Program-made: the position numbers and the translations under genes
Shown here: piece by piece, positions 1 through 62,551 of the stretch
Layout: each line of letters starts with the position of its first letter
Numbering within the stretch: the stretch's first letter is position 1
Notes under the pieces: generated by a model
Told to the model about the DNA's origin: nothing
The model's input: only the letters and a program-made list of their open reading frames with translations
Databases searched by the model: none
Source: Lumbricus terrestris
Taxonomy: Eukaryota > Annelida > Clitellata > Crassiclitellata > Lumbricidae
Reading direction: 5' to 3'
DNA length: 64,000 nt
Assembly (NCBI GenBank): GCA_949752735.1
Contig: OX457043.1
Location: 4,203,867 to 4,267,866 of the forward strand

Positions 1-258
1 TGGAGGCGACATATAGGCGATTCGCGTTCTTGTTGGCAATTATTCGGATAAACGAGGTGGAAATTTCTGTCGAAATGATTTCTCGTAGATTTATGTAGAA
101 CTTATGATTAAATTGGTTATCATCGTGCACTGCAATCAATTGGTCGTTGAGCAAGGTAAATATGTCATTCCGCAGGTTGGTCACGTCTGTGGGGGCCATG
201 TTGCTAAGAAATATTAACGTTGCAGCACGCTTAGCTGACACTTGAGTCATCTGATCGC
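1..258 (-). CDS. Copy A, exon encoding start of propeller II (partial)
   Basis: Acceptor AG at 259-260, phase 1. The first residues are GDQMTQVSAKRAAT, aligned residue for residue with the terminal exon of copy B (30492 downwards). The rest of this exon, including the stop, lies before position 1. Confidence 0.85.
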
Positions 259-3200: not shown

Positions 3201-6200
3201 GCTAATAATACTAATTCAAAGTTTCCCCCTCATTGTCTTATTTTGTTTTAATTTGACTGTAATGGAAACATTTTAGGATGTGATCAAAACAAAATTTTCA
3301 CTCAATCACACAGAAATTTGGAGAGCCTGGCCACTCCGCTGTGCAAGAAGTAGATAACACCCACAGTCAAGTCGAGAAGAAACTTAAAGCACAGGATGCT
3401 TTCAGCCCAATAGGCCTGGTTAGAGTTCTAAAACAGGTTAACCCAAAGAAACCCATGGCAGTTATCCAGATGAGACAGTTTCAGGATTATAAATCTGCAG
3501 CGAATAAGTTAAATTTTTCAACGATACCATACAAGAAAGTGAAAGTCATTACTTATTCAAACAGTGAATCAGATGTTGCTGTCGAATATGGGACTTCCTT
3601 TGACAAAAGTCTTCTCACTAAAGCTCATTATGATGAAACCACTTCAAGAAATCCCCAGGAAGATTTGTAACACACCGCATGCACCGCACAAGCTGCCTTT
3701 CCTATTTATTGAACAATGTATTCCCACTGGAGAATTGTCATCAGAAAAGGCAAGAGCTTTGGAATCTATACTCAAGTTCATGGATGAAACAACCCGGTAC
3801 TTTAAAACTATCATCAAAAGCCCGCAGAAGAGCAAGAACTCGCCAAGTACTTCGACTGCTGAAGAGCCAATGCCACGGAAAAGAAGTAAAGTGATGACTT
3901 TAAGAACAGTTACTTCTGCTTCAGGAAGGAGAGTGAAAAGAGAGGTGACGTTCGGGGACGCAATGCTCAGAAATAGTCATAGAAAAAGAAGACTTAGCGA
4001 TGCATAATTATCATGGACTTTAACTCCTAAGGATTAAGCATTTCAAAGTTAGATCTTACACAGACAGGCGTAAATAAACTTTCTAGGTCTCATTTCATGA
4101 GGTCTCTTTTCTTTCTGCAAGCATGATATTTTATCACGTGAGATAACCGACATTATTTTCTTATGTTGCCTACAATTTTAATAAAGTTTTGTGAGTAGGC
4201 GAATACAGCATTACTTTTTAGCATATAATTACCTACTCATTGTTAAAGCAATGTCGCAATTTCAATGTCTTTGATGCACTTACTGCACTTACCTGGATTT
4301 CATTGCTGAAATTGCTGAATGATTATTTACAATGCTAAATTTAATTGTGATCTTTGCATAACCTTATCAGCGTAATAATCTTACAAAGCAATCTTCTGAA
4401 ATATTGAGGGGATATAAGCACCTCTGTCCCCCCCACTACAAACTTTGGAGGGACCGTCCCCCGCTGTTCCCCCTAAGTCTCCGCCCATGCATACACTTTT
4501 TAACCATTTTTATCTTCTTGTCGAAGAAAATCGATGATAATTGGAGAAACAAATCTTGAATTCTTTCTTCAGTTACACCTCGGAGCCGAGCCGAGTTCAG
4601 CGGGCATTGTCAAGGCTTCAGGGTGGGCCATACTGGAAACTTAGTCGACCCTGAACCGCGTCGCGGAGGGACCCTAGAAGTATGGGGTGATTTGTAACAC
4701 GCATGTACATGTATGTGGGAATGCTAATATCAACCCGCATGTATATGTATATATATATATAATTATGGGCATGGATGTATGCGTATTTGCAGTGGTTTTA
4801 TTATAATAAATAACATTTTTAGTATAATCACTAACCTTAGAAATATATAGTTTCAACTGGAAGACTACACTAGTACACTTGTCTAACATTTCAAATAAGT
4901 GCTTCTTTACAGCAAACAAATTAAAACATTAGCACTTAGTACATCACTGACATTCACTGTCAATAGTCACAAAAGTATGGCCCTTGTTGTGGCCTGTAAA
5001 GGGATAACAGAAGGGATGTAGGCCTAGTTTTACATCCCGCTGATTAGGGTCACTCCAATATTATAGATTACGCAAAGAGTATTACTACGGTGGTCAATAG
5101 GCCTACAGGAAGAATTATTATATCACACAAAGACTGAATCCAAAAATATTAAAACTGACGAAAACTGACCTAAAATCTGAAGTAAATTTGGTCATAGGCC
5201 TAATTATAGTCTACACATCGTAAAAAGTCATTAATTAATTAATTGGAAGGTTGTAATTCACATCACGGAATCTCTTCTAAAGTTCAGCAGACGTACATGT
5301 AGTAGGCCTATTATACTACTGATGGTGTTTCATGCCAAGCTTGAACATTATAGGACTTGATAGTGTATTAAATGTATTAAATGTGTTGAAATGGGGTTGT
5401 AGGCTAGGCCTATGTATATTAGAGACGTTATGGAGGAAATCTCTAATTTATAGCGGAGGGATTAGTTTATGGTCAAGCTGATAGAAAATTCACCTTTTAT
5501 AAATATCGAACACAAACAAACTCTTTCACTTGTGGTGTATGCCTCTTACTCGAAAAGTGTTGCGAAATAGGTGTTATTTTCGCTTGTAGGTAAGCTTAAC
5601 TCACCAACTTGTCTTCTGAATTCCATGTCCTCTATATCCACACGGCCAGGTTTGATACTTGATGTTCTGCTTCCATCAAATCTCTGAAGATGAAAAATAA
5701 CCATCAGCTGCTAAGAAATATAGTGCTTTTACGATTTCTTGGTCTATTCAGCAAAGTGTTCAGAAATACATTAATTTTGGGGTTGGATAATTATTGTATA
5801 ATACGTCCATTTGTTTGATCACAAGAATAGAAATTTGTTCTCTAAGCTTATTCTAAAAATGAATAAAAATTTATAAAGCCTAACTGCGCCGTACCTCAGA
5901 AAGTACACCCCAAGTGAGCTGGAAAAGATTGCGCATTGCCTTCAAAAGATCGCCAGTCAAGTAGATATCTTTCAAATGACTTAGATCCTTAGTTGAAGGA
6001 CACAGAAGCCATATTACGATGCCTCTGTTCCACGAAACTTCGAACACTTCGATGCCATCCATTCCAATGTCAGTATGAAGCTGTCTGAGTCTGCGCTTAT
6101 CGAACCGCTGCAGTATTTCCTTCTGCAATCCATTCACCAGGCGCTCTTCATTTTCTCTTGCTGCTTTTGTTAACCGAGGTGCAGTTATAACTCTACACTT

Positions 6201-6422: not shown

Positions 6423-9400
6423 GCTATGGCAATGCACTTCAACACATTAACTCATTAAAATATTAAAAATCGAGCCCGTAATATGAGAATATACCACCAT
6501 AGGCGCAAGAAATGGATATCGAAAGACACTTTTGAACTGATAGAGAAGAAACGCGAGGCCAAAACAAAATCACTCACGGAATACAAAAGACTGCGCTAGA
6601 TGAAGTACAGAAAGGACTACGAAATAATAAGCAGGAAGAGCTACAGACACTGTGTAGACAAATAGAAGAAAACGCAAAAAATGTAACAGCAGACCATGTA
6701 GTCTTCCAAAAAGAGAAGCGGTTCACTAGCTCATTCACTGGTAGATTCTACACTGGTTCAGTAGGCTAAAAAAGGCAAATCAGAGATGGAGAGAATACTG
6801 CGAGTAAACTATAAGCATGCAGCGAAGAAGTAGAGAGTGTAGAAATTGACATTTAAGAATGAGAACCACCACCGGTAAAGGAAGAGATAATGAAGTCGGC
6901 GTCACGAAAGGCACCGGGACCGGATGATGTGGCCGCAGAACTGTTAAGGTTTGGAGGAGAGATGACAGTGACTAAACTACACGAGATATGCACGATCGAA
7001 AGTGTGGGAGACCGGAGAATGGCCAGAAGAGTGGACTCAATCAGCACTCATCCCACTCCCCAAAAAGGGTGATCCACTTTAGTGTAATATTTACAGAATA
7101 ATCGCACTGGTTTCCCATGCAAGCAGGATTTTGTTGCGCGTGATGCTAGATCGTATGCAACACAAGCTCGATGACGAAATTACTCAGGAACAGGCGGGGT
7201 TTAGGTCAGAAGAGATACTAGAGACCAGATTGTGAAATTTAAGATCGTACTATAGAGAAATCAACAGAAAGAAGTCAATCACTCTATCTTTGTTTCGTTG
7301 ATTTTACTAAAACCTTTGATCGGGTCCGACATGAACAACTATGGATCACCGTGCTCGAAATGGCTTTCTAGTCCAACTACTAAGGAATCTGTGCATACAA
7401 TAACAGGCAAAATAGCAGCAAAATGTCAGGATTGATGGCCACACTTTGACATGGTTCAATGTTAAAAAAGGAGTTTGACAAGAATGCAACCTCTCTTCAT
7501 GCTTGTTTAACATTCTAGCAGAACAGGTGCGTAAGGCACTACTCGCACTAGCGGGATTTTCCGGTGGATTTAGGCTACGATTGGCGGAAACCCATCAACA
7601 ACCTCAGATACGCTGATGATATCGTCCTTATGGCCAGAACGTCGGAAGAACTACAAGACCTCGTGAAACGTGTTGAAAGTGTTGCAGGAGAATATGGCAA
7701 TGAACGTGGCAAAGACGAAAGTCATGACAACTACTGAGAAGGTGCTCAAGATGCAAATTGTGCGAGTGACGTAAAATCAAGGCTGGCCACGGAGATGGCC
7801 AAACTGACAAAGCTATGCATGTCCATCGGCAACAACACCAAATTGCGGCTGATGAAGGCTTTGGCGTGGCCAGTGGCGACTTACAGGTGCGAGGTCCGGA
7901 CGCTGAAGAAGAAGGAAGAAACTCGTTTTCAGATATTTGAGAACAAGCGCCCCGGAAAATTGCTGAGAATCTCGTGTGCAAAAATGATTCAAATGAACGG
8001 GCGTACAAACCGCCCACGGGCCAGAAATGTAGGCCTATAGCCTACTGGGCAATTAGCCCAAATCAAATTTCGAAAACTGCGCTATTTTGGCCACATCATA
8101 AGACAACCGCACGACAGTATTGAAAGCAATCTGCTGACGGGTCTCGTGGAGGGATTTTGAGACTAAGGTAGACCGAGAATTTCGTGGCTTGACAACGTCT
8201 CGCAATGGACTGACCTCGTGGGCACACACACCTGTTGAACGCGGCTCGCGACAGGAGACGTACTTTGGGCAGTGACAATCCATTCGTGTTGCCAACCGTC
8301 GCGGTGCGACGATGGCGATATGACAAGACATGACTATGAAAAGACATTATTGTCAGCTGCCGAAGCAAGAATGCAAGTCACACATCACTGAAAAGTTACA
8401 CCCGCCGGAAAGCGAGACAGATAGCTCTATAAGTTATAAAGTAACTGAGATCATGAATGAATTTAACCACATTGCGCATAATAATATGAACTTCCGTTTT
8501 CTTGAATGCAGCATGGGTCTCTAGCAGAAACATTAAAGTCAGTGCTTGTAAAAATGATTTTAAAGTAAGTGCCTTAGCCTAAAAAGCCTAAACTGCCTTG
8601 AGTTTATTATATTTTTGCCACCGTCGCGTTTGCTTAAACAAAACGAGTTCTTAGCCTTTTAAGGTTAAATCCTGAATTTTATTTGAAGGCCTACGTTACA
8701 CAGCTTATTTTACCTCCTCCTTTATCAATGACATCTGCGATACGGCGCTGGTCAAAAGAACGCAGACAGTCGATGAAATGCTGTTGTTTTTCATTCGGAT
8801 GCGACCTGATCACTTTCAGAAGTTCGAAATTTCTGTCGATTCGGTTCACTAGCTTTCTAATGCGCATCGCTTGTTTCCTTGTAAGACATCCAGCCGAAAC
8901 CAAAGGTTCGATGAGAATATTTGGTTTAATGCTCTCCAGCAGAAAGCGTCGGTTGCTCCGAATGATAGCTCGCGTCTTGAAAATCGTTTGCAAGAAGCCT
9001 AAAACAATAGTTATCGTATGGTAATCGTAAGTGTAATCTCCAAACTTCTAAAGCGCCACTTGAAAGCCGAGTGCGGGCACCAACCTGTTCACGAGCGTTG
9101 CGTCAAGTCAGACAGTTTGTCCGGGGTAGTCCGATGGAGGTCGAATGCGGCTTCCTGTGGTTCAGAGGGGCAGAACAGATGTTAAGGAGGGTGTTGCTTA
9201 GGTCAAGAATTGGAAGGTGTAGGATCAAGTGAATCAGAGTAAAGAGGCGAGACTTGAGTTATAAATGGCAAAGGGTGATGTATCGAAGAACCTGAAGGAG
9301 GTGATGGTAGGTGATTGGCAGTGATGGCGGAGGGACCGAAAATCTGCGGAATTCATGAAGTACTATAGCAGATCCTTCTGACCATCAGCGGTATTCGTGA

Positions 9401-9670: not shown

Positions 9671-12600
9671 GTCAACAACAACAACAACAACAACAACAAC
9701 ACTACCATCATTCGTGCATGTTAAACCGCATTATTGCGCCGAATATTGAGTCACTGGACTAGCCCATACGCAGATTACATCACTCTCCATCTTTCACCAC
9801 GAATCTCTAGACAGGAGCCTAACAACGGCACCTGCCCCTCACTCCTAGTACGACACCTTTGCAGGATATAACCATGACTCAAGAATCCGTTTTTGCTATA
9901 ACATTTGACATCAGCAACCTGACTGATGGGCGCCTGTTAACGGCTGTCCCTGCTTTATTACCTTATTATTACTAAACTTTATTATCGCTCCTGTGTGTTA
10001 TTTTACATTATGTGACTTGTAACCTGGTGCGGTAAGTCAACTGGATTTGTCTTGTTTTTCAGATAAAACGATTGTGCTACCATGTTGACCGAAAACACCT
10101 TGTAGTAGCTCAAGGTACCCTACTTGGGCCAAAAGTACACAAAGTACACACTTATACACTGCAGCATGGTCGGCGTAGTTTTTAAAAACATTGCCTGTTA
10201 TGAACTGTTTAAGGTTCGCGAAATCATTGGCGATTATTTCAGTTACTTACGCGACACAATACGATTTTCGGCTGATTTGAAACGGCGTCTTTTTATCGTG
10301 AAATTCCAGTCCTGACTCACCGAGCACAACCACTTTAATACATCTTCTCTTGAAAATCGACGACTTATTGAACAGAAACGAATTTCAAACACTTTCAAAA
10401 GAATCAATTCTAGTACCACAAATGGCAGGCCGTCAATCTTCAAGGCAAACAATAAACAGTAAACAGTCGATTTAACACAACTCAAAATGATCGTATAGGC
10501 TCGTACGCTATCGATACATCTAGGCTATGAAATAATATCTGCAAAAATCGATTTGTAAACCCTCGAACGCAAGTGTAGGCCAAAGCCAAACTTCAAATTA
10601 ATCGAGCTCTTCTTGAAAATTGTCAAGTTATTTTAACTTCGTGCTGCTTAGATTTGAGCTAATGTGAAGACTAGGTCATACAGAAGGATTTTTGGTGGTC
10701 AGGACTCAGGCGGGTTGGCTGAAGTTCAATCCAGACACGTTTGAAGCCATCGAATCCTTAGACCAAGTGTAGGTGCTAATAAAGTTCATTTCAATACTAT
10801 ATTCTACTCCAATTTTTGAGTTTTAATTAAATCAGGCAGTGGCGTAGCCAGGAATTTTTCATGAGGGGTTGTTTTTTTTGGCCTGGCCGGATACCCTTTC
10901 TGAAACCAACCCAACAGTAGCTTGGACTACTGTTGCTCTATTCTTGTTGGTTTGCCTCAATTATTGATATCCCGACTTGACCGTGTTCTTCGGTCCGCAG
11001 CCCGGCTAATTGGGCGAATCCCTAAATATGCATCTGTTTCATCATACATGCGTGATACTCTACACTGGCTCCCTATATCACAGCGTATCGAGTACAGAAT
11101 TGCTTCACTGGTTTGGCGTTGTCTTCTTGGCTGTGCTCCGACTTATCTTGTTGAGCTCTGCTGTCCAGTATCTGTTGTCCTGGCTCGCAGAGTCCTTCGC
11201 TCTGCCTCTAGTGTGAAGGTTTTGGTCCCACGTGTTGAAACCTCAACCTGTCAGCGTCGTGCTTTCTCAGTTGTAGGTCCATCTGTCTGGAATTGTCTCC
11301 CGTTGCAGGTGCGCCTGCTACCAAGGGTTGACTCATCAGTCTTCTACAAGCTCCTTAAAACTTTTTTGTTTCGCCGTGGTTGGATTGGGAGCGCTTCTGA
11401 GTGGATTTCTTGAAGAGGCGCTATATAAATTCTTGAAATGAATGAATGAATGAACAGTATTACAGTAAATATAAAGGGAATAAAGTAACACAGGGAATAA
11501 AGTCACAAAAACAAATGTTACTACAAGCAATTGTTTTGTTTTTGCTTATATAAATGAAAAAATAACCTTTAAACAAAAACATTTCCTAGGCCAATGGGGG
11601 GTTTTAACCCCCGAAACCCCCCCCTTGGCTACGCCACTGAAATCAGGCATGTTTATAGGTCTATAGATCTAAGCTGATAACACGGAGATCAAAGGATCAA
11701 AATGCTGATAAGAGCAATGGTGTCATACACTGGTAAAGGAGATTTGATGAAAATACATAAGGCATCTCTCGAAATCATTCTTGTGCCATGTCACTGTCGC
11801 TGTGAACTCGGCCATAGGTAACATCAATGTTTCGAAGTCTCTTCTCATTATGGTATCAATTGCTTCGACATCGTATACATGTCTTAGGTGGACGAGTTCT
11901 TGCAACGATGCAACATGAAAATAGTAGGCTATTCCGTTATTGAACGTGACGAACATCAACCCAAACTTTTTCAGCTCAAGCGTTTCAGAGAGGGGATCAT
12001 TCAGCTTCTCATTCAATCGCGCCACAACATCCTTAACTTCGCTGTCGTCCACTTTGTTTCCTCCACGATTAAGGTGGCAATATATCTTTGCAGTTGCTAC
12101 AAAATACCAGTAGGCCTAATCAGCATCAGTCCTCGAAAAAGCAAATTGCATTAGACCAGAACTATTAGCGTACCTATGGGCGGAGTTTGGTTTCCGTTTT
12201 GGGTTTTTTTTTGGGTGGGGGGCTAAAAAAAACTTGGTCCCGAACGAGCCGACAGTATTTTTCGTGTCGCCCAAAAAGTCGATGACCTTTTTTAGTCATC
12301 AATTTCAAATGTCATGAAAATAACTATATTACTATATTTTCCCGACCGGAACAGTGGATGACCTTTTTTAATCATCAGGTTCAAATCTCATGAAAATTAC
12401 TATAGGCCTATTAAATTTCCCGACCGAAAAAGTTAATGACCTTTTTTAGTCATTTGGTTGGACGCTCTTAGGGGGGGGTTAAGCCCAAAAAAGATACCAT
12501 TTACACGGTAAAAAACATGAACCTGGGGCTTCTTGTGGGCTTAGTCCCCAGCCCCTGATAAACTCCGCCCATGAGCGTACCAACCATCAACTTTGGACGA

Positions 12601-14489
12601 GAATCCGTTGACTTGAATAAAAAACGAAACGAGTTTTTTACGGCTTTGCTTAGAGGCTGCACGTTACAATAATTATTTGCATTGATCCGTTCCGTTATTT
12701 TAATCAAGTTCCGATTTAGTAAGCTTCACTTAGAATTTGCCTAGGTCTATAAAATAATACGGTTAGGAGCCTTTGAAAAGTGACCTAAGAAAATGTGAGA
12801 GCGCTTCGTTTGATCTATTTCACTTAGACTAGACTACCTCCTCTTTCAAGAATATCCGCTGCGTATTGTTGCTGTTCTGAGGTTCGTAAGGCGCAAATGG
12901 TCTTCTGATAATCCCTGATGCTTCGTTTTCGAAGAATGTCCAGCAACGCTTCGTTTCTCTTCATGTCTCCTGGTTGACCGCATATGAAATCCAGATGCCT
13001 GCGATTCAGAACGCCATTGGAATGAAGCATTTGAGCCAAGTCCGAAGTTCGCTTGATCAATTCTACCAGAATTTCTTGATGGACGTTAATCGTTATCTCT
13101 TCTTTCTCCGTTATAGGGAGATCAATTTCACAGAGCGGATTGTATCTACCCCCACCTGCAAGAGAAGGCCTAGCAATCAATTTCTAAAAGCTGTTAGATA
13201 ATAACAAGTGTGTTTTAGAAACCTCTTTGAAAATGCCCATGTTCCCTCTTCTCACTTTTCAAGCTCTTGCTAAGATAATAATTACTAACTGTGACCAATG
13301 CATTTTGCAACTCCTGAAAAAATTATCTGTGGGCACCGCGCCCATGGTCGTTATCCTCCCAGTTTAACTGAAGGATTATCTATATAATTGTGGGCCTATG
13401 CCTACAAAGTAAGCCATAATATAGCCTACTTTAGCAGGCCTTAGTTCCGATAAGCCTAATAATTCAGTCGTGTGCTGTGACCCTATGCTGTGGAATGGCC
13501 TTCCTTAAGTTCCTGCAGCAACTCGTGTTCAGATTTTACTCTGGAGGTTCTATTGTTTCTGCCCGTGGTCTTAAAACTTTTCTTTATGGCGGGGTTCTTT
13601 GCACTAAGAGCAGATATTATGTGTAAACTTTATAAATTCGTCAGTAGGCCCTAGTAGGTTATAGCATTGCATAGTTGTAGCACAGCATAGTATAGATAAT
13701 TATTAATATAATATAGCCTACATGTATATTATATTAATATAATTATTGGCATTGACCTCTGTCCTCTGTATTAGGCCTAACAACTTCGTGACCGAAAAAC
13801 TGAGATCGTCGCCCAGAGATTGCAGTTTAGCAGGCCTCGTGGTGCTCTTCTTGCTCCTATTGATCAATTTTCTAGTACATAATCTTAAATTTTTACAATA
13901 ACTAATGGGCCATACAATAGCGTACATGACAGTGTGCAAATATAAAGTTATCTACTCCACGACTCCCACGAGTAAGCCAAACATTAGGAAACATTCTGTG
14001 ACAGTGCGCTGAAATAGATGGATTACGTTTAGGAAAATGGCAGTTCTAAGAATGCAGCTTGGCCAATCTAGTGTAGGCCTAATTGTGGGATAGCCTACTG
14101 CTCAATTCTTGCTTAGGCTACGTCTATTTTGCGCTTACATTGATCCAAAGAAGAAATTTACAAATCGGTATATTCTCACCTGCAAGATAGTTTACCAGAT
14201 GACTTTGGTTAGTTTCCTGTAAAATCTCAAGTAAGTGTGGATAGTGATTTTCCTTTTGCATATAATTTACAATGGCTCTATTTTTCGCAGTCACTGAACA
14301 TGCGGATCTGACATTCTGAAATTCCATCTGGGAAAGGAACCCGTAACTTAACAATTTATCTGTTAATCCGAATTCTGGCTCCATATGTAGCACAAGAAAC
14401 TCTAGACTTTCAGCCGTCGGTGAATCTAATTCAGTCAGTTGGTCAACCCTTGCATACACGATCTCGTTGCACCTTGCTGGCATCGTCAT
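1..14489 (-). CDS. CARD/TRADD-N-like/double-propeller protein, copy A (3' partial)
   Basis: Unrecognised family. Nine exons, joined by phase: 14489-14180, 13155-12838, 12096-11729, 10437-10251, 8998-8714, 6208-5895, 5683-5605, 2200-1337 and 258-1, running off the window. Every junction is GT-AG and about 994 codons stay open. Domains in order: CARD-like (about residues 35-103), second CARD-like (about 135-209), TRADD-N-like unit plus extension (210-394), third CARD-like (395-489), TRADD-N-like (490-594), linker (595-620), propeller I (621-908), start of propeller II. No signal peptide, membrane span, Walker A or caspase motif is seen, so a cytosolic adaptor or sensor role is inferred. The start at 14489 is the first ATG in frame before the conserved block; copy B uses a slightly different ATG and a non-coding first exon is possible. 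A complete paralogue lies at 29666-38667. Introns are swollen by transposons. Confidence 0.8.
565..756. mobile_element. hAT-type MITE with CAGGGCT ends
   Basis: 192-bp element in the propeller I/II intron of copy A. It starts CAGGGCTG and ends with AGCCCTG, flanked on both sides by the 8-bp duplication TAAAAAAG. An 8-bp target-site duplication with CAG...CTG ends is typical of hAT elements. A relative lies at 34677-34868 and a truncated one at 39818. No coding capacity. Confidence 0.8.
757..1336. other. Copy A intron remainder with dispersed-repeat fragment
   Basis: Intronic. Around 990-1020 is a segment with CCGTCCGCCCAAAACGGAC that recurs near 25820, so it is a dispersed repeat. Nothing coding is seen. 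Copy B's equivalent intron is only 463 bp, so most of this is inserted DNA. Confidence 0.5.
1337..2200 (-). CDS. Copy A, exon encoding propeller I
   Basis: 864-bp exon, phase 1 at both ends (acceptor TTTTTCAG at 2201-2208, donor GTTAGT at 1331-1336). It encodes 288 residues of short alternating hydrophobic strands such as DKIYLRF, CDGTLLVL, YKIALVTR and GNLFIAYD, typical of a beta-propeller, but without WD40 GH/WD dipeptides. Copy B's exon is 30 bp longer. Confidence 0.75.
2885..3290. repeat. Degenerate tandem repeat of about 118 bp, 3-4 units
   Basis: Successive units share the landmarks 'gcattttaggctgtcatttt', 'attgctca', 'agtgctaatag' and 'cttcaaagtgt...ccc'. Units begin near 2888, 3005, 3122 and 3235 and drift in sequence. 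They lie inside the hAT element at 2770-4489. Confidence 0.6.
3341..4007 (+). pseudogene. Coding stretch in two frames inside a hAT element (captured sequence?)
   Basis: A frame open from 3341 to 3670 (109 residues, charged, mixed helix/strand) is followed in a different frame by 3564-4007. The second part ends in a basic, serine-rich tail with PRKRSK and KREVTFGDAMLRN and a stop at 4005-4007. The two frames overlap, as expected after a single frameshift or across an unseen short intron. I do not recognise the product; it has no hAT dimerisation or DDE features. It may be transposon ORF2 or a captured host gene fragment. Confidence 0.4.
5605..5683 (-). CDS. Copy A, short linker exon
   Basis: 79-bp exon, phase 0 in and phase 1 out (acceptor CTTCAG at 5684-5689, donor GTGAGT at 5599-5604). 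It encodes RFDGSRTSSIKPGRVDIEDM..., a charged linker between the second TRADD-N-like unit and propeller I. The paralogous exon (32791-32872) has one extra arginine codon, which confirms it is coding. Confidence 0.8.
5895..6208 (-). CDS. Copy A, exon of TRADD-N-like unit 2
   Basis: 314-bp exon (acceptor TTTGTCAG, donor GTACGG). It encodes a helical stretch followed by a strand-helix core: RGIVIWLLCPS, then STKDLSHLKDIYLTGDLL. This follows the TRADD-N pattern: a hydrophobic strand, then L..L...Y..G.L. Assignment is by pattern only. Paralogue: 33072-33385. Confidence 0.65.
6279..6420. repeat. GCGTGT / GT microsatellite
   Basis: About 60 bp of a hexamer (GCGTGT) passes abruptly into a pure GT run, in the copy A intron between TRADD-N-like unit 2 and CARD3. 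It is absent from copy B. Confidence 0.95.
6530..8330 (+). mobile_element. Decayed LINE (RTE-like RT) inside a copy A intron
   Basis: Broken reverse-transcriptase frames are readable: KAPGPDDVAAELLRFGG near 6905, SALIPLPKKGDP near 7040, QEQAGFR near 7190, a degraded ADDIVLMARTSEEL block near 7612-7650, and the C-terminal FGHIIRQPHDS near 8087. Many stops and frameshifts make it dead. The equivalent copy B intron (33386-33979) lacks it, so it inserted after the gene duplication or was lost from B. Confidence 0.75.
8714..8998 (-). CDS. Copy A, exon of CARD3
   Basis: 285-bp exon, phase 1/1 (acceptor GTTTTAG, donor GTAAAA). It encodes an all-helical module of about 95 residues: LIEPLVSAGCLTRKQAMRI, then FELLKVIRSHPNEKQQHFID and LRSFDQRRIADVI. 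The hydrophobic spacing fits a CARD (helix, G-h-L turn, E/K..L...I, F...L.....L). Paralogue: 33980-34264, same length. Confidence 0.7.
9016..9360 (-). mobile_element. LINE 3' relic shared with copy B
   Basis: It begins with TCGTAA/GTAATC units, then 'cttctaaagcgccac', and continues with LINE 3' sequence related to the family at 45954-47996. The same relic sits in the same intron of copy B (34290-34630), so it predates the duplication. Confidence 0.65.
9473..9702. repeat. ATC and CAA trinucleotide microsatellites
   Basis: About 65 CAT/ATC triplets with rare GTC interruptions, followed by about ten CAA triplets. It is intronic. Apparent long poly-His, poly-Ser or poly-Met frames here are artefacts. 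Confidence 0.95.
10251..10437 (-). CDS. Copy A, exon of TRADD-N-like unit 1 extension
   Basis: 187-bp exon, phase 0 in and phase 1 out (acceptor TTGAAG, donor GTAAGT). It encodes IDGLPFVVLELILLKVFEIR, a helix, then WNFTIKRRRFKSAENRIVSR. The two exposed hydrophobic strands and helix complete the preceding unit. Paralogue: 35160-35346, same length and strongly conserved. Confidence 0.75.
10837..11639. mobile_element. hAT MITE with CAGTGGCGTAGCC ends
   Basis: Ends CAGTGGCGTAGCCA and TGGCTACGCCACTG with a perfect 8-bp duplication AAATCAGG on each side (10829-10836, 11640-11647). It is interrupted by a LINE fragment at 10920-11452. The same family occurs at 37613-37873 and 40335-40583. Confidence 0.9.
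10920..11452 (+). mobile_element. L2/CR1-like LINE 3' fragment nested in a hAT MITE
   Basis: An open frame from 10922 to 11413 gives the C-terminal part of a LINE ORF2: LDYCCSILVGLPQ, HWLPISQRIEYRIASLV and FSVVGPSVWNCLP. The 3' tail reads GGGAGCGCTTCTGAGTGG...GAGGCGCTATATAAAT and ends in TGAA repeats. Target duplication AACAGTA (10913-10919 and 11453-11459) proves insertion into the MITE. It is 5' truncated. Confidence 0.88.
11729..12096 (-). CDS. Copy A, exon of TRADD-N-like unit 1
   Basis: 368-bp exon, phase 1 in and phase 0 out (acceptor TTTTGTAG, donor GTATGA). It encodes TAKIYCHLNRGGNKVDDSEV, helices, then FGLMFVTFNNGIAYYFHVAS, LQELVHLRHVYDVEAIDTIM and a closing NDFERCLMYFHQ helix. This strand-strand-helix core with L..L..Y fits a TRADD-N-like fold. 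Paralogue: 36091-36458, same length. Confidence 0.7.
12175..12573. mobile_element. hAT MITE with ATGGGCGGAGTTT ends
   Basis: Inverted repeats ATGGGCGGAGTTT / AAACTCCGCCCAT are flanked by the 8-bp duplication AGCGTACC (12167-12174, 12574-12581). Inside are three copies, about 75 bp apart, of the hairpin word GATGACC-T6-AGTCATC or variants (about 12283, 12358, 12434). It lies in the CARD2/TRADD-N intron. Confidence 0.88.
12838..13155 (-). CDS. Copy A, exon of CARD2 (lost in copy B)
   Basis: 318-bp exon, phase 1 at both ends (acceptor CTCTTGCAG, donor GTAGTC), so skipping it keeps frame. It encodes a helical module: LIKRTSDLAQMLHSNGVLNR, IRDYQKTICALRTSEQQQYA and ADILERGG, with CARD-like spacing. 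Only a decayed remnant remains in copy B at 37190-37275. Confidence 0.7.
13470..13610 (+). mobile_element. LINE 3' fragment (relic)
   Basis: Reads as CDPMLWNGLP followed by broken frames resembling the WNxLP region near the end of LINE ORF2. Short and decayed. Confidence 0.35.
14180..14489 (-). CDS. Copy A, first coding exon with CARD1
   Basis: Donor GTGAGA at 14174-14179, phase 1 out. It encodes a short N-terminal arm, then LTDKLLSYGFLSQMEFQNVR, KNRAIVNYMQKENHYPHLLE and ILQETNQSHLVNYLA, a CARD-like six-helix pattern. The start is chosen at ATG 14489-14487. The homologue of copy B's ATG is present here but is followed by an in-frame TGA, so copy A must start later. Confidence 0.65.
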
Positions 14490-20213: not shown

Positions 20214-20258
20214 TGTGCAGTTCTTCCTGCCAGCGACGACAACCCGAGGTAACCGAAG

Positions 20259-29665: not shown

Positions 29666-30492
29666 TTAATTTCTCTCTTCTATGGTGAACACGTCGACTA
29701 TAATTGATGAACTTGTGTGGGCAACGATGAGCTGTTGTTTGTCCTTCTTGTAACACATAAACAACGGATTGCTACAGTTCAGCAGAGTGTACTGTGTATT
29801 CAGCTCAGAATCGAGCAGAATCACACGATTGCCTTCCGCATCCGTAGCGATAATGCGATCCGAAGAGTACCAAGCCATTGACCAGATTAATCCAGGCTGA
29901 TCCAATTTGTCGTCTGGTTTGGGTCGCAGGTAAAATCCACCATCGCTCGCCAGCATCAGAATATTACCGTAGTTCCGCTTCTCCGGTGTTCTATAGACTA
30001 CAGCAAACAGCCCGGATGATATTTCGACCACTTGTGCGATTTCGTCCATGTATGGGGGCAACTTGACGTCAATCACGCTAGCTGAGTTCCGGATTTCAAA
30101 TCTGGCTGGAAAAGTGTTTGTCGTCAATATATCACCGTCAATGGACATAGACATGCTGTTAGGAGAGCTAATAGCAATTGGATCACCACTTCCTATGAAG
30201 CCTGTGGCACTTCGAAAGAGTCCAAATGCTGCGTCGGTTGAGGCGACATATAGGCGATTCGTGTTCTTGTGGGCAATAATTCGGGTAAAGGAGGTGGAAA
30301 TTCCAGATGAAATGATATCTCGTAGATATATCTGGTACTTATGGCTGAAGTCATCATTGTCTTCGTGTACTGCGATCGTTTGGTCATTGTACAAGATAAA
30401 TATGTCATTCTGCAGGCTGGTCACGTCAGAGGGGACTCTGTTGGTAATCAACGACGCAGCGCGTTCAGCTGACACTCGAATCAATTGATCGC
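29666..30492 (-). CDS. Copy B, last exon: propeller II
   Basis: 827-bp terminal exon (acceptor TTTTTTTAG), stop TAA at 29666-29668. It encodes 275 residues of strand-rich repeats (DVTSLQNDIFILYNDQTIAV, GNILMLASDGGFYLRP, DRIIATDAEGNRVILLD). It is homologous along its length to the propeller I exon. Confidence 0.8.
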
Positions 30493-33400
30493 CTAAAAAA
30501 ATGTTTAGCAAATTTCATAATTTATTTTTATCAAAACACGATTAATCAAATGACACAGAAAATGCGTTCCCAATGATCAATAACATAATTATTCACTCAC
30601 ACTGGAATAAAATGGACTCTTAGGATTAGATAGCCTAGCGACACTCTATTTTTTGCTAAACAAGCAAAAATGCAGGACCTGCACTTGTGGATATTGCAAA
30701 AAATGTGAAGGATATAATTTATCTCTATGTATACGAGTATATTTTGCAAATAATTTCTCAAACCGATTTTTTTACCGCCAAGTAAAAAGATAGTAGCACT
30801 GATAGTCTCAATTAATGTGATGTGAAGTGCAGAATGTAGATGATAAATCTATTCCGAGGGTAAGCCTAATCTGTGAATTTGTCGAGCATTTAATTATTTC
30901 TGTTATTTCATTCATGCAAAATACAGGCGTGAACTGATAACCAATAATAACTAACCTTCACTGTCAACTTGCAGAGAAAAGAGGTTGACGACATCCCTGC
31001 CGTGAATATTAATGTCAATGATGATCAACTGCTCTTTGGTTTCTTTATAGTGAATATTTCTGGGACTGTGAATTTCATATGTCTCCTTTGTCAAGAGAAC
31101 GTGCTTTGTGCTGAACTTTTCGTTACACGTGACGACTTCGCGACTGTTAGAGTCATAGACAAAGAACAGATTCCCTTTAAAAGGTGTTAGGCATGGCGGC
31201 TCGACGAAATGCGGCTGGCTCCAAGCCTCTTTCGGTTGAGGACTTAGGACAAGACTTGATCGGCCAACGCGGGTTACGAGAGCAATTTTGTATTCGCTGC
31301 GAAAAGCTTCAGATCCTTTGTAGCTCACAATGAACTTCCCAGAGTCCGATTTTATGGCGCAAAAGTACGAAAGCGATGTCCATGAATTTAGAGTCGTTGG
31401 CAGGGTGATTGATTGCACGAGTTGAGCATCGGCTCCATAGAGTTCAATACACGGTGATGAAATAAGACTATCTTTCCGCAGTGCTGAAATATCCTTCCGC
31501 AGTATCAACAGTGTCCCATCGGAGCAAACAGATAGTGGACATGGCTCTTTTATATCCGGCAACCATATCTTCATACTATTATAGTCCATTGCCAACAGCT
31601 TCAACACACCCCTGTCGCTAGTCGTATAAATGCACACATTTCTCTCGCAAGCTTTAGTAAAATTAGGCTGAGAGCGAACGAGTGGCAGGTAAACATTCTT
31701 TATGCATTTGAATGGAGGCAAATCCTCGTAGATTGAGATTCTCTCGCTGAATCGTAGATAGATCTTATCGCGTAGACTTGTGACGTCAAACAACGTCTGA
31801 CGAACTGTTCTAAGCGTCTTTTGGTGTCTTGCCAAAATGGAACGCATAGCTGAAGAAATATAAATCGTTACAATAACATTATGACACCACATTGCTTCTT
31901 ACGCATGTAGGCCACATGTATGTACATGTATGGATGCTATTATTCCCCACGTGTGTATGCGTGGACATAGGATGTATGCGTAGGCTACTTGCAGTGGCAT
32001 TAGTGCAATAACTGACCTTTTAGTGTTGTAACTAACCTTCGAAATATCTTTCAACAGGAGAGCTACACTTGTTCTAACAAATCAAATAAAAGCTTCTTTT
32101 ACAGTAACCAAATTAAAACATTGAAACGTCACTTTCAATAGTCTCAAAAGTAGGGCCCGCGTTGTGGCAAGTAAAGAAGATTGTACAATGGATTTAGGCT
32201 ATAGGCTGCATCTCGCTGACTAGGATCACCCTAATAGGCCTACTGACTACGTAAAGAGTTTCTCTATGGTGGTCAATACCAGAAGAATAAAGATATTTAA
32301 ACTGGCACACACTGAATTAATATCTTAACTACACTCGGTCATAATTATAGTATACAATTACACATCGTAGAAAGTCATTAATTAATTAATTGGATGATGG
32401 TAGTAATTTCCAACACGGAATCTCTTTCTGAATGTCAACAGATGGAGCAGGCCTAGCCTACCACTTATTGGATTTCATTCCAAAGTTGAGTTGAGCACCT
32501 TAGGACTTAGCAGTGCGTTACAATGGGCTAAAACGGGGCGGTATATGCAGGTGAGTGCGTATTACAGAGCGTATGCATAGACTCTATTAGAGGTGTGCTG
32601 GATGAAACCTCTAAACAACAGAAGGAGCCGTTTATGGTCAAGCTGATGGACAAATTCATCATTTAAAAATATTGTACTCAAGTCACACATGTTCTTTCAC
32701 TCTTGGTATGCTCCTTACCCGAATAGGCTAGTGTTGTAAAATATGAGATGGGCCTATAAAATTATGTCTGCTCAGGTAGGCCTAACTCACCAACTTGTCT
32801 TTTGAATTCTATGTCCTCTATATCCACACGGGTAGGTTTGATTCTCGATGTTCTCCTGCTTCCATCAAGTCTCTGAAGACGAATAATAACCGAAAGCTGT
32901 TAATAAATTTCGTGCCATTCACGATTCAGCAAAGTGTTCAGATATGAATTTATGTGAATATTCTAATAACCTATTATGCGCGTAACATGGTCATCCGTTT
33001 GACTCAAAGCATAGGAATTTGCTCTGTATTCTAAAAATGAATGAAATTTATAAAGCCTAATTGCACCGTACCTCAGAAAGTACGCTCCAAGTGAGTTGAA
33101 AAAAACTGTGCATGGCCTTCAGAAGGTCACCAGTCAAGTAGATATCTTTCAAATGACTTAGATCCTTTGTTGAAGGGCACAGAAACCATATCACGATGCC
33201 TCTGTTCCACGAAACTTCGAACACTTCGATGCCGTCCATTCCAATGTCATCATAAAGCTGCCTGAGTCTGCGCTTATCGAATTGTTCCAATATCTTCTTC
33301 TGCAATCCATTCACCAACCTCTCTTCATTTTCTCTTGCTGCTTTTGTTCGCCGAGGTGCAGTTGTAACTCTACACTTCACGAGGACTAACAAAGTTCACA

Positions 33401-36400
33401 CATGACAACATAAGCTTAATATTATGCGTGTGAGCATATCGCGTATCTTTTTTTTATATGTGTATGCCTATGCACTTCAACTCGTGCACTAAAAATGCGA
33501 AAAATCGAACTGGTAGGCCTACTATGAGATGATATTCTGACATGCCGAATCAACAATTGAAGCTACATATCGCCGATTCCAATAGGCCTACAAGCAATAT
33601 TTTGTGGTAGTGGTAGGCGACGCCGGTAAGCGAGACCGATGGGTACGCTTAAGTTAAAAACTAAATGAGACCGTGAATAAATTTGACAACATTGCGCATA
33701 ATTGCATGAATTTCTGTTTTCTTCAATACCGTGCACAGGAGACTCTAATAGAAACGTTACAGTTTGTGAGTGTCAAACTTAGTAGACAGTAGGTCTAAGT
33801 GGCCGCATCTAAAAGAAGGACTAAACTGCCATGAGTTAACCATAATTTTTATCTTAACCATCGTCTCGTTAGACTCGTTTGGTATGACGAGTAGTTGCTT
33901 AAGCAAAACGAGTTCTAAACATTTTCACGGTTAAATCCTGAATTTTATTTGTAGGCCTACATTCCACAGCTAATTTTACCTCCTCCTTTCTCAATGACAT
34001 CTGCAACACGACACTGGTCAAAAGAACGCAGGCAATCGATAAAGTCCCGTTGTTTTTCATTCGGAAGCGACCTGATAACTTTCAGGAGTTCGAAATTTCT
34101 GTCAACTCGGTTCACTGGCTTTCTAATTCGCATCGCTTGTTTCATTGTAAGACATCCAGACGAAACCAAAGGTTGAATGAGAATATTTGGTTTAATGTTC
34201 TGCTGCAGAAAGCGTCGGTTGCTCCGAATGATAGCGCGCGTCTTGAAAATCGTTTGCAAGAAGCCTAAAATAAACCCGTAGTAATCATTATGGTAGTCGT
34301 AAGTGTGATCCCTTAACTTCTAAAGCGCCACTGGCACGTCGAGAGCGGTAGCACCAACTTATTCACGAGCGCTAGCTGTCTCGACTTATTAAGGTTGTTC
34401 ACAAGTGTAGTCCAAAGGAAGTTGAGTCCGGCTTCCAGTGGGACGGATGGGTAGGTGAGATGTTAAGGTGGGAGTCGCTTAGGTCGAGAAATCGAAGGTG
34501 CAGGATCAAGTGAGTCAGGTTAAACAGGCGAAACTTAAGATATGAGTGAAAAGTCCGAGGATGGTGAATAAAGGATCCTGCATGATGGTAGTTGAGTGGC
34601 AATGCTGGTGAAGCGATCAAAATCTGAGGAATCATTTAGGAAGAACTACTTGATCACCGAACTTATTATTATCACCCAGGGCTAATTTAAAGAAATTTTT
34701 AGAACTGCACAGCCCCTTTTTTCCTTTCCCATCCTCCCTGGTAAATAACTTCCAATCGGAGGAAAATGACCAATTGGGCAAGTTTTAACGGTACAGACGT
34801 GCTTCTACAACTGAAAAATTCATTTAGAACTGCACATTTTGTGTACAACCGCACGTTAAAAGAGCCTGTCGTCACCTTGCATCTCCAGCATAGACATTGG
34901 TGCACTAATAACGCTTCAATCATGTATGACTAGCCTATATTGCCAGAAAACACATTGCAGTACTGCCAGTACCGGTAACTCCCTCAAGGTAGCCCGGTCA
35001 GAAGTGCACAGAAGCAGAAATATTTCATTCACACTTATGCACTTCACGATGATCGGCGTTATTTTCTAAAACATTGCTTGTTAAATTAATTGCTTAAGGT
35101 GCGTGAAGCGTAAAGTTATCGGTAAGTATATAGTTGAGTTACTGGGTAGGCCTACTTACGCGACACAATACGATTTTCGGCTGATTTGAATCGGGTCCTT
35201 TTAACCGTGAAATCCCAGTCCTGGCTCACCGAACACAACCACTTTATTACATCTTCTTCTGAAGATCGATAATTTATTGAACAGAAACGAATTTCAAACA
35301 CTTTCAAAAGAATCATTTCCAGTACCACAAATGGCAGGTTGTCAATCTTCAAAGTAAAACACCAGACAGTTCTTTTGACATAATGCAATAATTATGATCG
35401 TAGACCTATCATTGTTATGTTTCACTATCGAGACATCCACCGAATAAAATTTTTGAAGGTCCATTATATATTTTTCTAAACCCTCAATCGCAAGTCAAAC
35501 CTAAACTCACACTAGTCAAATGCCTCTTGAAATTTATGCTTGTATGAGGCACAAGATCCACTTGTCTGGAGAATACAGAGCACAGTGACCATTACCTCGG
35601 GCTGTGTTGAGGCCGAGTGAAGTCGGAAGGGGAAGCCCATGTATTTACACTGTGTCCTGGGAAAAGGGAACCATTCTGTAAATATGAAAATAAATGGTAA
35701 ATAGTCATCGATATTTTAAATTCAAACGCCTTTTAAATCCATGACTTATGCGTCTAATACTGGTGAAAATATAAAAGTCCCACTTATCGAGTAACGTTAA
35801 TGCCATGCTAATAATTAGAATTGGGCGGATGTAAAGACTGCAGCAGGATTTCTGGCAGTAGGACGATCTTTCCGAGATTTAACACAAAAACCTTTTAAAC
35901 CGTCGATTACTTAGTTTAAGTAGGAGTTACCCCTTAGAAATAAGTCTATATAAGTCTTATGCATATTTCATGCTGCTCAAACTAAGTCTGAATTACACGA
36001 GGTACGTTTATTCGGTCAACCTCTATTATAGCCTACCGAAAACGAGGTGATCAAAGGATTAAAATGTGGATAAACGTAATAGTTCCATACACTGGTAAAG
36101 GAGACTTGATGAAAATACGCAGAACATCTCTCGAAGTCATTCTTGTTCCATGTCACTGTCGCTGTGAACTCAGCCATAGGTAGCATCAATGCGTCGAAGT
36201 CTCTTCTCATAATAGTATCAATTGTTCCACCATCGCAAATATCTCTTAGGTAGACGAGTTCTTGCAACGAAGCAAAATGAAAATAGTAGGTAATTCCGTT
36301 ATCGAACGTGACGAACTTCAACCCAATTTTTTTCAGCTCAAGCATTTCAGCGATTGGATCATTCAGCTTCTCATTCAATCGCGCCACAACATCCTTAACT

Positions 36401-38667
36401 TCTCTATCGTCTACTTTATTTCCTCCACGATTAAGGAGGCAATATAACCTAGCAGTTGCTGCAAAATACCAGTAAATCTGTCAGTATTAAGAAATGTAAA
36501 GTTTTGTCAAATGGCTTTATATAGGACTATTAACGTACGAACCATGAGCTTTTCAACGAGAGTCCTTTGCATGTCTGGGTTCTCCGTATATGTGCGGGAC
36601 CTTGTTTTTGGCGACTGTTCTAATATTATTTCTATTATTCGAACGAGTGTGTTTTTCACTGCCTATTTGGTCTTAAGTTTGACATCGTTAAGACCAACTG
36701 TAGCTGAAATCTTTAAACATAAATAATTATTATGAAAAATAGTAGTGGATTCAACATGACATTGTCATAATTATAGTCTAGGCTATAACTTGAACATAAT
36801 AATAGAAAGGTGTGTTTTTATTTGGCAACCATTACAATCACAGCGCTGTTCAATTACTTTAGGCCTACATATCCTAAATCGCGTTGGATGCCAATGCAGC
36901 GCCAGATCTCTCAGCAGCTTTGAAACCTTTCACCGAATATTGCAAAGCGATCGTTTAAATGCAACCGTTGGGTCTACTTACACAAGTCATGTAGGCTACA
37001 CGCTGCTAAACCAGAATCGACCCGTTCAGTTGGTTTTTATCATGCTTCGATTGAGTAAGCCTGAATTCACTTAGAATTTGCTTATAATATAATATTGGCT
37101 AGGAGGTTTTTGTTAAATGACCTCGGAAAATATAAGAGCACTTCGTCTTATCAAGTTCACTTGGGCTCTACCTATTTTAGAGACTCTTTTAAGAATGCTT
37201 GCCGCATTGAAGTCTTGGGGTCCGTAACGAGCAACATGTCATGTTCTCCTGATTAGCCCCTGATGCTTCGTTTTCGGTCCTTTGCGCTGATCCTGGCTCA
37301 CTCTTTGTAATATGAATATTATTTTAATTGGAGTTGAAATCATGGATAAATAATGTTTACATTGGAGTCCTTTGACCTTCGATCTTTGACCTTGCCCTTT
37401 GACCATGCGATTACGCATGGAATCTCGTGGTGCAACGATGTCATCAAGACACGTGGGCTGTGACGTCAATTCCGGTGGGCTACAAGCAGCGGTCATCTCA
37501 CTGCTAATGCTTACCGTTTTAAGAGAGCATAAACGCGTAATCCTGATACGTCGCTATACTCACATTTCAGCAGTAGGATATAACAGTCCAGTTAAGGTAT
37601 ACGCCCTATAGGCAGCGGCGTAGACAAGAAGTTCGTGGGTTGAACCCGCTCCATTTGCTTAGGAAAAAGTTTTTAAAGGTTGTATATCCACTTAAATAAG
37701 AAAAACAAACAATTGTTTTTTTGCAGTAATAATTGTTTTTCTTACTTTATTCCCTATGTTGCTTTGTTCCCTTTTTATTTGCTGTAGTACTGTTGGGTTG
37801 GTGTCAGGAGGGGCATCTGGCCAGGCCATAAAACCCCTAAAACCCCCATTATAAATTCCTGGCTACGCCACTGCCTATAGGTCTACTTCACAGGCCTTGT
37901 TATAGGTAGGCCTAACAAATGAATAGGCTGGTTACTAGTTATTTGCTCTATGAAAAACGAACAACTTATAAATAATTCTGTGACGGGCCGCTGAAATAGG
38001 ATTGCGTTTAGAAATCTGCCAGCACTGCTGTTGGCACGATTCTAAGAAGAAAGTTCGAGAAGTCTAGAGACTCTATAGTCTATACTATAGAGTCTATAGG
38101 TTTATGTCTATGCTACGCTAACAATAGGCTAATCCCAGTGCCTAAAGTGTGGAAAAACAAGTGCCTGGACGCCCCTTACCTTTCCAAAAGAAGTGCCTGG
38201 ACGCCTCTTACCTTTCCAGTCTGTGCTCGCCAATAAGTGGCTGGACGGCGTTCAGATTTTAAAACAAGTGCATGGACGCCGTCCATGACCGTCCAGACAC
38301 ACTTTAAGCCCTGGCATATCCGAAGAAGAAATCTATGAATCTGTGTAGGCTCACCTGTTGCGTAGTCAATAAGTTGACTTCTGCTAGTTGTCTGTAAAAT
38401 CTGAAGTATCTGTGGAAAGCGATTCTCCATTTGCAAATAGTTAACTACAGCTTCTTTTTGCACAGTGACTAGCCATACAGATCTGACGCTCTCAAATTCC
38501 AACTGCGAAAGCAACCCGTAGTTTAACAATCTATCTAATGATCCACGTTCTAGCACAAGAAATTCAAGGATTTTTGCCATTGCCGAGTCTAATTCAATCA
38601 TTTGGCCGATAGGATCGTCAACGCTTGCAATTTTCGCAATTTTCTCCTTGCGCCATTGTAATTTCAT
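29666..38667 (-). CDS. CARD/TRADD-N-like/double-propeller protein, copy B (complete)
   Basis: Eight exons: 38667-38355, 36458-36091, 35346-35160, 34264-33980, 33385-33072, 32872-32791, 31849-30956 and 30492-29666. The sum is 3270 nt, exactly 1090 codons including TAA, with GT-AG borders and matching phases throughout. Order: CARD-like (about residues 33-104), TRADD-N-like plus extension (105-289), CARD-like (290-384), TRADD-N-like (385-489), linker (490-516), propeller I (517-814), propeller II (815-1089). It lacks the CARD2 exon of copy A; phase symmetry lets exon 1 splice directly to the TRADD-N exon. No signal peptide, membrane span, ATPase or protease domain. Death-fold domains suggest assembly of signalling complexes; the propellers suggest ligand or partner binding. 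Both are inference. No named family recognised. Confidence 0.85.
30956..31849 (-). CDS. Copy B, propeller I exon
   Basis: 894-bp exon, phase 1/1 (acceptor TTCTTCAG, donor GTTAGT). Same content as 1337-2200, plus a 30-bp in-frame insertion near 31455-31490 that creates the repeat LRKDISALRKDSLISS. Confidence 0.8.
32791..32872 (-). CDS. Copy B, short linker exon
   Basis: 82-bp exon (acceptor CGTCTTCAG, donor GTGAGT). It encodes RLDGSRRTSRIKPTRVDIED..., one codon longer than the copy A exon. Charged linker before propeller I. Confidence 0.8.
33072..33385 (-). CDS. Copy B, exon of TRADD-N-like unit 2
   Basis: 314-bp exon, same borders as in copy A. Core RGIVIWFLCPSTKDLSHLKD, then IYLTGDLLKAMHSFFQLTW. 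Confidence 0.65.
33980..34264 (-). CDS. Copy B, exon of CARD3-equivalent
   Basis: 285-bp exon, phase 1/1. Helical module with LVSSGCLTMKQAMRIRKPVN, NFELLKVIRSLPNEKQRDFI and DCLRSFDQCRVADVI. Confidence 0.7.
34290..34630 (-). mobile_element. LINE 3' relic shared with copy A
   Basis: Same relic and same intron as 9016-9360. Minus-strand frame reads SFIHHPRTFHSYLKFRLFNL, resembling the C-terminus of the LINE ORF at 46110-47990 (FHSKLKTLLFQ). Confidence 0.65.
34677..34868. mobile_element. hAT MITE, CAGGGCT family
   Basis: Relative of 565-756. Starts CAGGGCT and ends AGAGCCTG. The flanks TTATCACC and TCGTCACC are a decayed 8-bp duplication (6 of 8 match). Confidence 0.7.
35160..35346 (-). CDS. 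Copy B, TRADD-N-like unit 1 extension exon
   Basis: 187-bp exon (acceptor TTTGAAG, donor GTAAGT). Encodes IDNLPFVVLEMILLKVFEIR, a helix, then a basic segment ending KSAENRIVS. Confidence 0.75.
36091..36458 (-). CDS. Copy B, exon of TRADD-N-like unit 1
   Basis: 368-bp exon (acceptor ATTTTGCAG, donor GTATGG). Encodes TARLYCLLNRGGNKVDDREV, LKFVTFDNGITYYFHFAS, LQELVYLRDICDGGTIDTIM and a closing DFERCSAYFHQ helix. Confidence 0.7.
37190..37275 (-). pseudogene. Remnant of the lost CARD2 exon in copy B
   Basis: The minus strand aligns with the 3' third of the copy A CARD2 exon: CGAAAACGAAGCATCAGGG is identical, then ATTCTT(A/G)AAAGAG near the donor. The 5' two thirds are replaced by unrelated sequence, the donor GT is gone and frames are broken. 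Flanking intron DNA (37040-37180) still matches copy A (12700-12830). Confidence 0.8.
37613..37873. mobile_element. hAT MITE, CAGTGGCGTAGCC family
   Basis: 261 bp, ends CAGCGGCGTAG and CTACGCCACTG, exact 8-bp duplication CCTATAGG (37605-37612, 37874-37881). It lies in the copy B intron left by CARD2 loss. Confidence 0.9.
38355..38667 (-). CDS. Copy B, first coding exon with CARD1
   Basis: Starts at ATG 38667-38665; donor GTGAGC at 38349-38354. After a basic N-terminal arm (MKLQWRKEKIAKIAS) comes a CARD-like module: LERGSLDRLLNYGLLSQLEF, KEAVVNYLQMENRFPQILQI, LQTTSRSQLIDYAT. Confidence 0.7.
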
Positions 38668-39817: not shown

Positions 39818-39925
39818 CAGGGCTTTTTAGCGTGCAGTTCAACACAAAATGTGCAGTTCCAAATGGATTTGTGCAGTTGTAGAAGTACTTCTGTGCATTT
39901 AAGAATAGAGCAATCTTTGTAGGCT
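39818..39925. mobile_element. Truncated CAGGGCT-family hAT MITE
   Basis: Starts CAGGGCTTTTTAGCGTGCAG and follows the inverse of the 565-756 element ('acaaaatgtgcagttc', 'tttgtgcagttgtagaag'). The far end is missing. Confidence 0.65.
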
Positions 39926-62154: not shown

Positions 62155-62551
62155 CTGAAAACACAAAAGATCGACGCTCAAATCCAACAACCGGAGATTA
62201 CAGTAAAGTATCTGACGTAGTTAATCTCAATGAGGTTCTGCGTTAGCATAAAAGTCACGCTGGACATACGGAAAGAAACTTCTTTTGTCAACGTTTCGAT
62301 TGTTCAATTAAATCGTAGTGATGTTTGTTTATCTGTTGCTCGAACTCCTTAAATTCTTTATTCCAAAACTGAGTATTTCTCGTCTGCCTTCAAATCAAAC
62401 ATCTGGAAACAGGTTTAAAAAATAATAACTTATATTATCTTCTGCATTTAAAGTCATTTTTTCATACCGACTGTCCCCTGTTACCATTCTGTTTCAAGAC
62501 ATTGTTCCCACCTCATGTCTAAAAATTTAAAACTTTTAGACATCATGGTAC

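Follow-up and report, generated by a model that had tools for sequence, protein, structure and literature searches.

A tandem array of predicted Lumbricus terrestris genes combining CARDs, predicted TRADD-N-like units and predicted NHL-type propellers, with no ATPase motif seen in the window

The window considered here is the whole stretch of 64,000 nucleotides analysed from Lumbricus terrestris (C9:4203867-4267866 of the 1.06-Gb genome), and the gene under study, gene A, lies on its minus strand at positions 29666-38667. Gene A is interpreted, with confidence that we would place midway, as one of at least seven tandem predicted genes that combine CARDs, predicted TRADD-N-like units, a possible F-box and predicted NHL-type propellers, no ATPase motif being seen in the window; the product is likely an intracellular immune receptor whose propellers would capture a target and whose CARDs would cluster. 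The genes of this array (at least seven, A to G) are located on one strand and span about 215 kb. They were found with module hidden Markov models (HMMs), seeded with three copies each and run over 264 kb, genes C to G being sets of exon hits. The order of modules in the array is CARD, CARD, TRADD-N-like, F-box-like, CARD, TRADD-N-like and one or two propellers.

Exon chain of gene A and its paralog

Gene A comprises eight minus-strand exons with consistent phases that total 3,270 nt, equal to 1,090 codons including the TAA stop. In the lists below, dN/dS is the ratio of nonsynonymous to synonymous substitution rates between gene A and its paralog in the window, gene B.

38355..38667, minus: exon 1, first CARD (diverged), ending in phase 1, start codon uncertain; the gene B counterpart passes Pfam CARD
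37016..37276, minus: decayed relic of exon X (the second CARD) and of the intron that follows it, seen by DNA match to gene B
36091..36458, minus: exon 2, predicted TRADD-N-like unit 1 (beta-alpha-beta-beta-alpha-beta)
35160..35346, minus: exon 3, possible F-box by homology to its counterparts in E, F and G
33980..34264, minus: exon 4, third CARD, phase 1-1, Pfam CARD 22.0 bits and below the cut-off (gene B counterpart 31.5 bits), APAF1 CARD match
33072..33385, minus: exon 5, predicted TRADD-N-like unit 2, lowest dN/dS (0.17), aligned to unit 1 by hhalign
32791..32872, minus: exon 6, short linker exon
30956..31849, minus: exon 7, propeller 1, NHL-type according to profile and read as a propeller from Foldseek
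29666..30492, minus: exon 8, propeller 2 and stop codon, homologous to exon 7

Gene B lies on the same strand. All eight exons were recovered in it in order when the gene A product was used as a tblastn query, from 14447 down past window position 1, and the match of the last exon extends to window coordinate -565 in the genome.

14180..14447, minus: gene B exon 1 (CARD), conserved part
12838..13155, minus: gene B exon X, second CARD, 318 nt, phase 1-1, Pfam CARD 29.8 bits, over the cut-off
11729..12096, minus: gene B exon 2 (predicted TRADD-N-like unit 1)
10251..10437, minus: gene B exon 3 (possible F-box)
8714..8998, minus: gene B exon 4 (CARD), Pfam CARD 31.5 bits
5895..6208, minus: gene B exon 5 (predicted TRADD-N-like unit 2)
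5605..5683, minus: gene B exon 6 (linker)
1337..2200, minus: gene B exon 7 (propeller 1)
1..258, minus: gene B exon 8 (propeller 2), truncated where the window begins

The recurrence of all eight exons in the same order in gene B takes the exon chain of gene A beyond chance. The splice sites of gene A were picked by GT/AG and phase, and the independent evidence for them is their coincidence with those of gene B: each of the seven introns of gene A is matched by one at the equivalent position, and all 28 boundaries examined (7 donors and 7 acceptors per gene) have GT or AG as required. The donor of gene A exon 2 is weak (CAGT before the junction, gtatgg after it), yet it is matched in gene B. 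In the latter gene intron 1 is split by the extra exon X, located between exons 1 and 2. The codons compared between both genes contain zero stops and give a dN/dS of 0.42 overall (dS 0.276, dN 0.116), only 85 codons being covered for exon 1 and only 83 for exon 8. By exon the ratio is lowest in exon 5 and reaches 0.53 in exon 7; the value of 1.63 for exon 6 comes from 26 codons, too few to weigh. The eight-exon gene of 1090 codons that an earlier note had proposed for this DNA is confirmed, with consistent phases and with its repetition in gene B, and its reading as a single chain is supported by the common exon order and the matching splice sites.

The 5' end is less clear. An in-frame stop directly precedes exon 1 of gene A (38600-38667) and the tblastn match of its product to gene B begins only at residue 20, so the protein start, and any exon upstream of it, are uncertain. 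Protein searches retrieved no relatives: with the full-length product none of 7,992 scored candidates reached E<=0.001, and E<=1 was reached by none of the 1,135 candidates for the propeller region and none of the 248 for the CARD/TRADD-N region. The collection is perhaps poor in animal proteins, and these results have little bearing on distribution.

Identity of the modules

CARD was the only domain listed by Pfam on the spliced product of gene A. At a cut-off of 23.9 bits three exons of gene B pass as CARD, namely exon 1 (24.2 bits), exon X and exon 4; of the gene A counterparts, exon 4 falls below it and exon 1 gives no match. A profile of five CARD exons compared with the PDB had the CARD of APAF1 as its best match (1.1e-7), followed by matches to NOD1 and RAIDD. 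On these profile matches the CARD identity is regarded as secure, and the CARD-like modules of the earlier note are borne out by the three gene B exons; their alternation with TRADD-N-like units is supported as well.

Exons 2 and 5 are predicted to be TRADD-N-like units. The assignment is based on the topology given above and on a modest, tied fold match to TRADD-N, a domain that is an RRM-like sandwich with kinked helices. Unit 1 aligns to unit 2 with a probability of 94% in hhalign, a score reached by 0 of 60 shuffles. Neither Pfam nor the PDB returned a sequence match of these units to known TRADD-N members. Of the 14 units in the array 12, including both of gene A, lack, as judged by eye, the tiny residue and the Ser in the turn between beta2 and beta3 of TRADD-N; two serines are present in that turn in unit 2 of genes E and F. 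The proposed TRADD-N-like content stays a prediction: topology and the modest fold match agree with it, and the motif is absent from the units of gene A.

The propellers are well supported as NHL-type by profile comparison. A profile of nine propellers matched Pizza7H at 7.1e-7, a value that adds up the repeats, none of the individual stretches passing by itself, and the NHL domain of PknD at 5.7e-4. The best Foldseek rows for the model of exon 7 read as propellers (best E 1.9e-3; model confidence, pLDDT, 42.9), and exon 8 is homologous to exon 7 (E 6.6e-6). No Pfam NHL match was obtained for the propellers, and when the PDB was queried with one exon at a time or with a small profile, neither TRADD-N nor propeller had a significant match. 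The two propellers suggested for the end of the chain are thereby supported by the profile, Foldseek and the homology of the two exons.

No ATPase was seen. The Walker A pattern [AG]x4GK[ST] is absent from the six frames of the window, a search that an ATPase exon without the canonical motif would escape, and from the coding strand in open frames of at least 60 residues of the 264-kb array region. The sole motif in those frames is a low-complexity reading on the opposite strand. The earlier claim of a protein lacking an ATPase agrees with these results and with the Pfam listing of the spliced product.

Exon 3 is possibly a divergent F-box with an insertion. The six copies were aligned, and the residues I, LE, IL, K, L, SVS and W are invariant among them. 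A profile of the A, B and C copies recovers the other three (E, F and G) with values from 1.5e-7 to 4.8e-9; therefore the six copies are homologous. They were scanned singly against Pfam at E up to 10, with an F-box cut-off of 20.5 bits. The best copy was that of gene G (17.4 bits, 0.0042; F-box-like 0.0047), followed by E (14 bits, 0.051) and F (13.4 bits, 0.076), while C (8.6 bits, 2.5) and B (8.0 bits, 4) were at noise level. Against 16 F-boxes of the own genome the six-copy profile scored 19.95 in hhalign (probability 28%), the 60 column shuffles reaching at most 15.57. Several results weigh against an F-box here: the gene A copy has no Pfam F-box match at E up to 10, none of the six copies passes the cut-off, the LP pair is absent from exon 3 of genes E and F, the module HMM finds no exon 3 in gene D, and the PDB gave no significant match for the exon. 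A lower probability is given to every reading that needs the F-box because gene A exon 3 has no match and the B and C copies lie at noise level. The earlier note is corrected on this exon: no death-fold match was obtained for it, and an F-box is possible instead.

The array and the remodelling of its copies

The first CARD, the third CARD, TRADD-N-like unit 1 and a propeller are found in all seven genes, as is unit 2, which is partial in gene D (18 bits). The second CARD is present in six (not in A), exon 3 in six (not in D) and a second propeller in three (A, B and C). All the module hits listed are on the minus strand. A search of the own genome with exon 5 gave three matches, in A, B and C. 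The array may extend past the 264 kb.

Of the seven genes only A has lost its second CARD, of which a relic remains: a 68% DNA match joins 37016..37276 to 12681-12931 of gene B, where only the 3' half of exon X aligns. Phase 1 is found at both ends of exon 7, of the CARD exons X and 4, and of the pairs 2+3 and 5+6, which have a phase-0 intron inside; therefore loss of one of these units, or its exchange at the same intron, would preserve the frame. These frame-neutral units fit both the CARD loss in gene A and a swap in gene C.

-21.0 to -4.7 kb (window coordinates): gene C, mosaic, D-type in its 5' half and A/B-type in its 3' half

The two halves of gene C differ in their likeness. With gene D, exons 1, X and 2 share 87, 87 and 78% identity, against 28-37% with A and B, whereas from exon 3 on the identity of the modules is 73-87% with A/B and 21-38% with D. 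Collinear DNA matches change from D-type to A/B-type at -12336 to -12727 (about 390 bp), in the intron between TRADD-N-like unit 1 and exon 3; the switch was read from collinear matches, with short non-collinear repeats set aside.

Other elements were identified around these genes. A Ty3-like element lies between A and B, with an open frame of 822 residues (20253-22721, plus) that has a zinc knuckle over the cut-off and an aspartyl protease and a Ty3 capsid below it. Upstream of gene A an open frame of 626 residues (46110-47990, minus) matches reverse transcriptase (RVT_1) at 118.8 bits. Among ten chosen upstream frames the only Pfam match over the cut-off was a CDP-alcohol phosphotransferase exon (61847-62197, minus; 31.3 against a cut-off of 22 bits), probably part of the next upstream gene on the same strand. 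Upstream exons shared by A and B were rejected, the two minus-strand frame matches in question reading like parts of a retrotransposon frame. Introns of A and B and the DNA upstream of A contain copies of a short repeat with 83-88% identity (565-753, 34677-34866 and 39818-39894), with a further copy in gene C at -11725 to -11529. The palindrome TAGGCCTA, common in echinoderm genomes, is present 51 times in the window, whereas base-shuffled versions of the window average 0.6. The window has no Rfam match at gathering score and no tRNAs.

Proposed working and comparison with known systems

In the receptor proposed here the propellers would bind a target, and clustering of the captured receptors would replace the ATP-driven oligomer. 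The clustered CARDs would then recruit caspases or adaptors through CARD-CARD contacts and start signalling, and the TRADD-N-like units would form a hinge that links the sensor to the CARDs. The F-box, if real, would recruit SKP1 and cullin, and ubiquitination would be a second output. The idea of a sensor coupled to death-fold assembly without an ATPase switch stands as far as the layout and the lack of a visible ATPase are concerned; the coupling is deduced from the parts. If it is true, death-fold receptor signalling would proceed without an ATPase switch, and with a real F-box a single chain would link cell-death assembly to ubiquitin tagging.

FBXW7 and beta-TrCP are F-box/WD40 substrate receptors of SKP1-cullin-F-box (SCF) ubiquitin ligases, and gene A could have mainly such a role, the propellers binding the substrate, the F-box binding SKP1 and the CARDs merely positioning the protein at death-fold assemblies. 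The retention of exon 3 in six of seven genes, the Pfam value of its best copy, a profile score above 60 of 60 shuffles and the FBXW7 layout of F-box plus propeller agree with this. It is nevertheless considered unlikely, with every F-box match below the cut-off and none for the gene A copy, no LP pair in E and F, no match in D, and up to three CARDs that exceed the needs of placement. A CARD-SCF receptor, in which an F-box would link NHL-propeller capture to both ubiquitination and CARD assembly in an ATPase-free death-fold sensor remodelled by exon-block exchange between tandem copies at introns, as in gene C, is likewise considered rather unlikely. Decay of gene A within the array is quite improbable: the relic of exon X, a diverged exon 1 with no Pfam match and the stop directly before an unclear start codon would be expected of a decaying copy, but the comparison with gene B shows zero stops and a dN/dS of 0.42, and the splice sites are kept.

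The remaining alternative, somewhat doubtful in our view, is that gene A is merely another protein of the TRADD-N expansions described by Kaur et al. (2021, PMC8195603) and works in no new way. According to the main text of that paper, TRADD-N is expanded in echinoderms, and amphioxus has DED-TRADD-N-propeller proteins without an ATPase; the domain is proposed as a switch between sensor and effector through a Ser that is strongly conserved, not invariant, and it tends to occur in single copy. The layout of death-like domain, TRADD-N and propeller and the lineage expansion are alike. Here, however, up to three CARDs replace the DED, two TRADD-N-like units contrast with the single-copy tendency, and the F-box is not mentioned in that main text. 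Furthermore, 12 of 14 units lack the switch Ser, and therefore any TRADD-N switch would mostly work otherwise.

Compared with known systems, the intracellular receptor preferred here resembles FBXW7 and beta-TrCP in that a single chain includes both a propeller and an F-box-like exon. It differs from them in its CARDs and TRADD-N-like units, one of each lying between F-box and propeller, and in the weak F-box match. With APAF1 (CARD-NB-ARC-WD40) it shares the same kind of CARD, APAF1 being the best PDB match, and the C-terminal propellers. APAF1 has NB-ARC and WD40, whereas gene A has an NHL-type propeller, no NB-ARC found and no Walker A in the window. More generally, receptors of the STAND class (signal transduction ATPases with numerous domains) such as APAF1 and NLR proteins place an NB-ARC or NACHT between CARD and sensor, a layout not seen here.

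The closest likeness is to the amphioxus expansion of the NCOA6-clade type in Kaur et al., as described in the main text: an N-terminal death-like domain, a TRADD-N-like fold, C-terminal propellers, no STAND ATPase and an expanded family. The expectation that this layout would match nothing described was consequently not borne out, and the general kind is already known because such DED-TRADD-N-propeller proteins have been described (PMC8195603). No description of an F-box combined with CARD and TRADD-N was identified among the papers listed by literature searches, the supplementary architecture tables of Kaur et al., which could hold an identical layout, lying outside this scope. The amphioxus type has one DED, a WD40 propeller and the conserved switch Ser, in contrast to the CARDs, two TRADD-N-like units, possible F-box and NHL-type propellers of this array. 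The array also displays receptor remodelling in neighbouring copies, with a decayed CARD exon, three of the seven genes having a second propeller and the halves of gene C matching two neighbours, so that the modular diversification of TRADD-N-type immune genes becomes testable within one locus. What is new here with respect to the amphioxus proteins is the several CARDs, the doubled TRADD-N-like units and perhaps the F-box.
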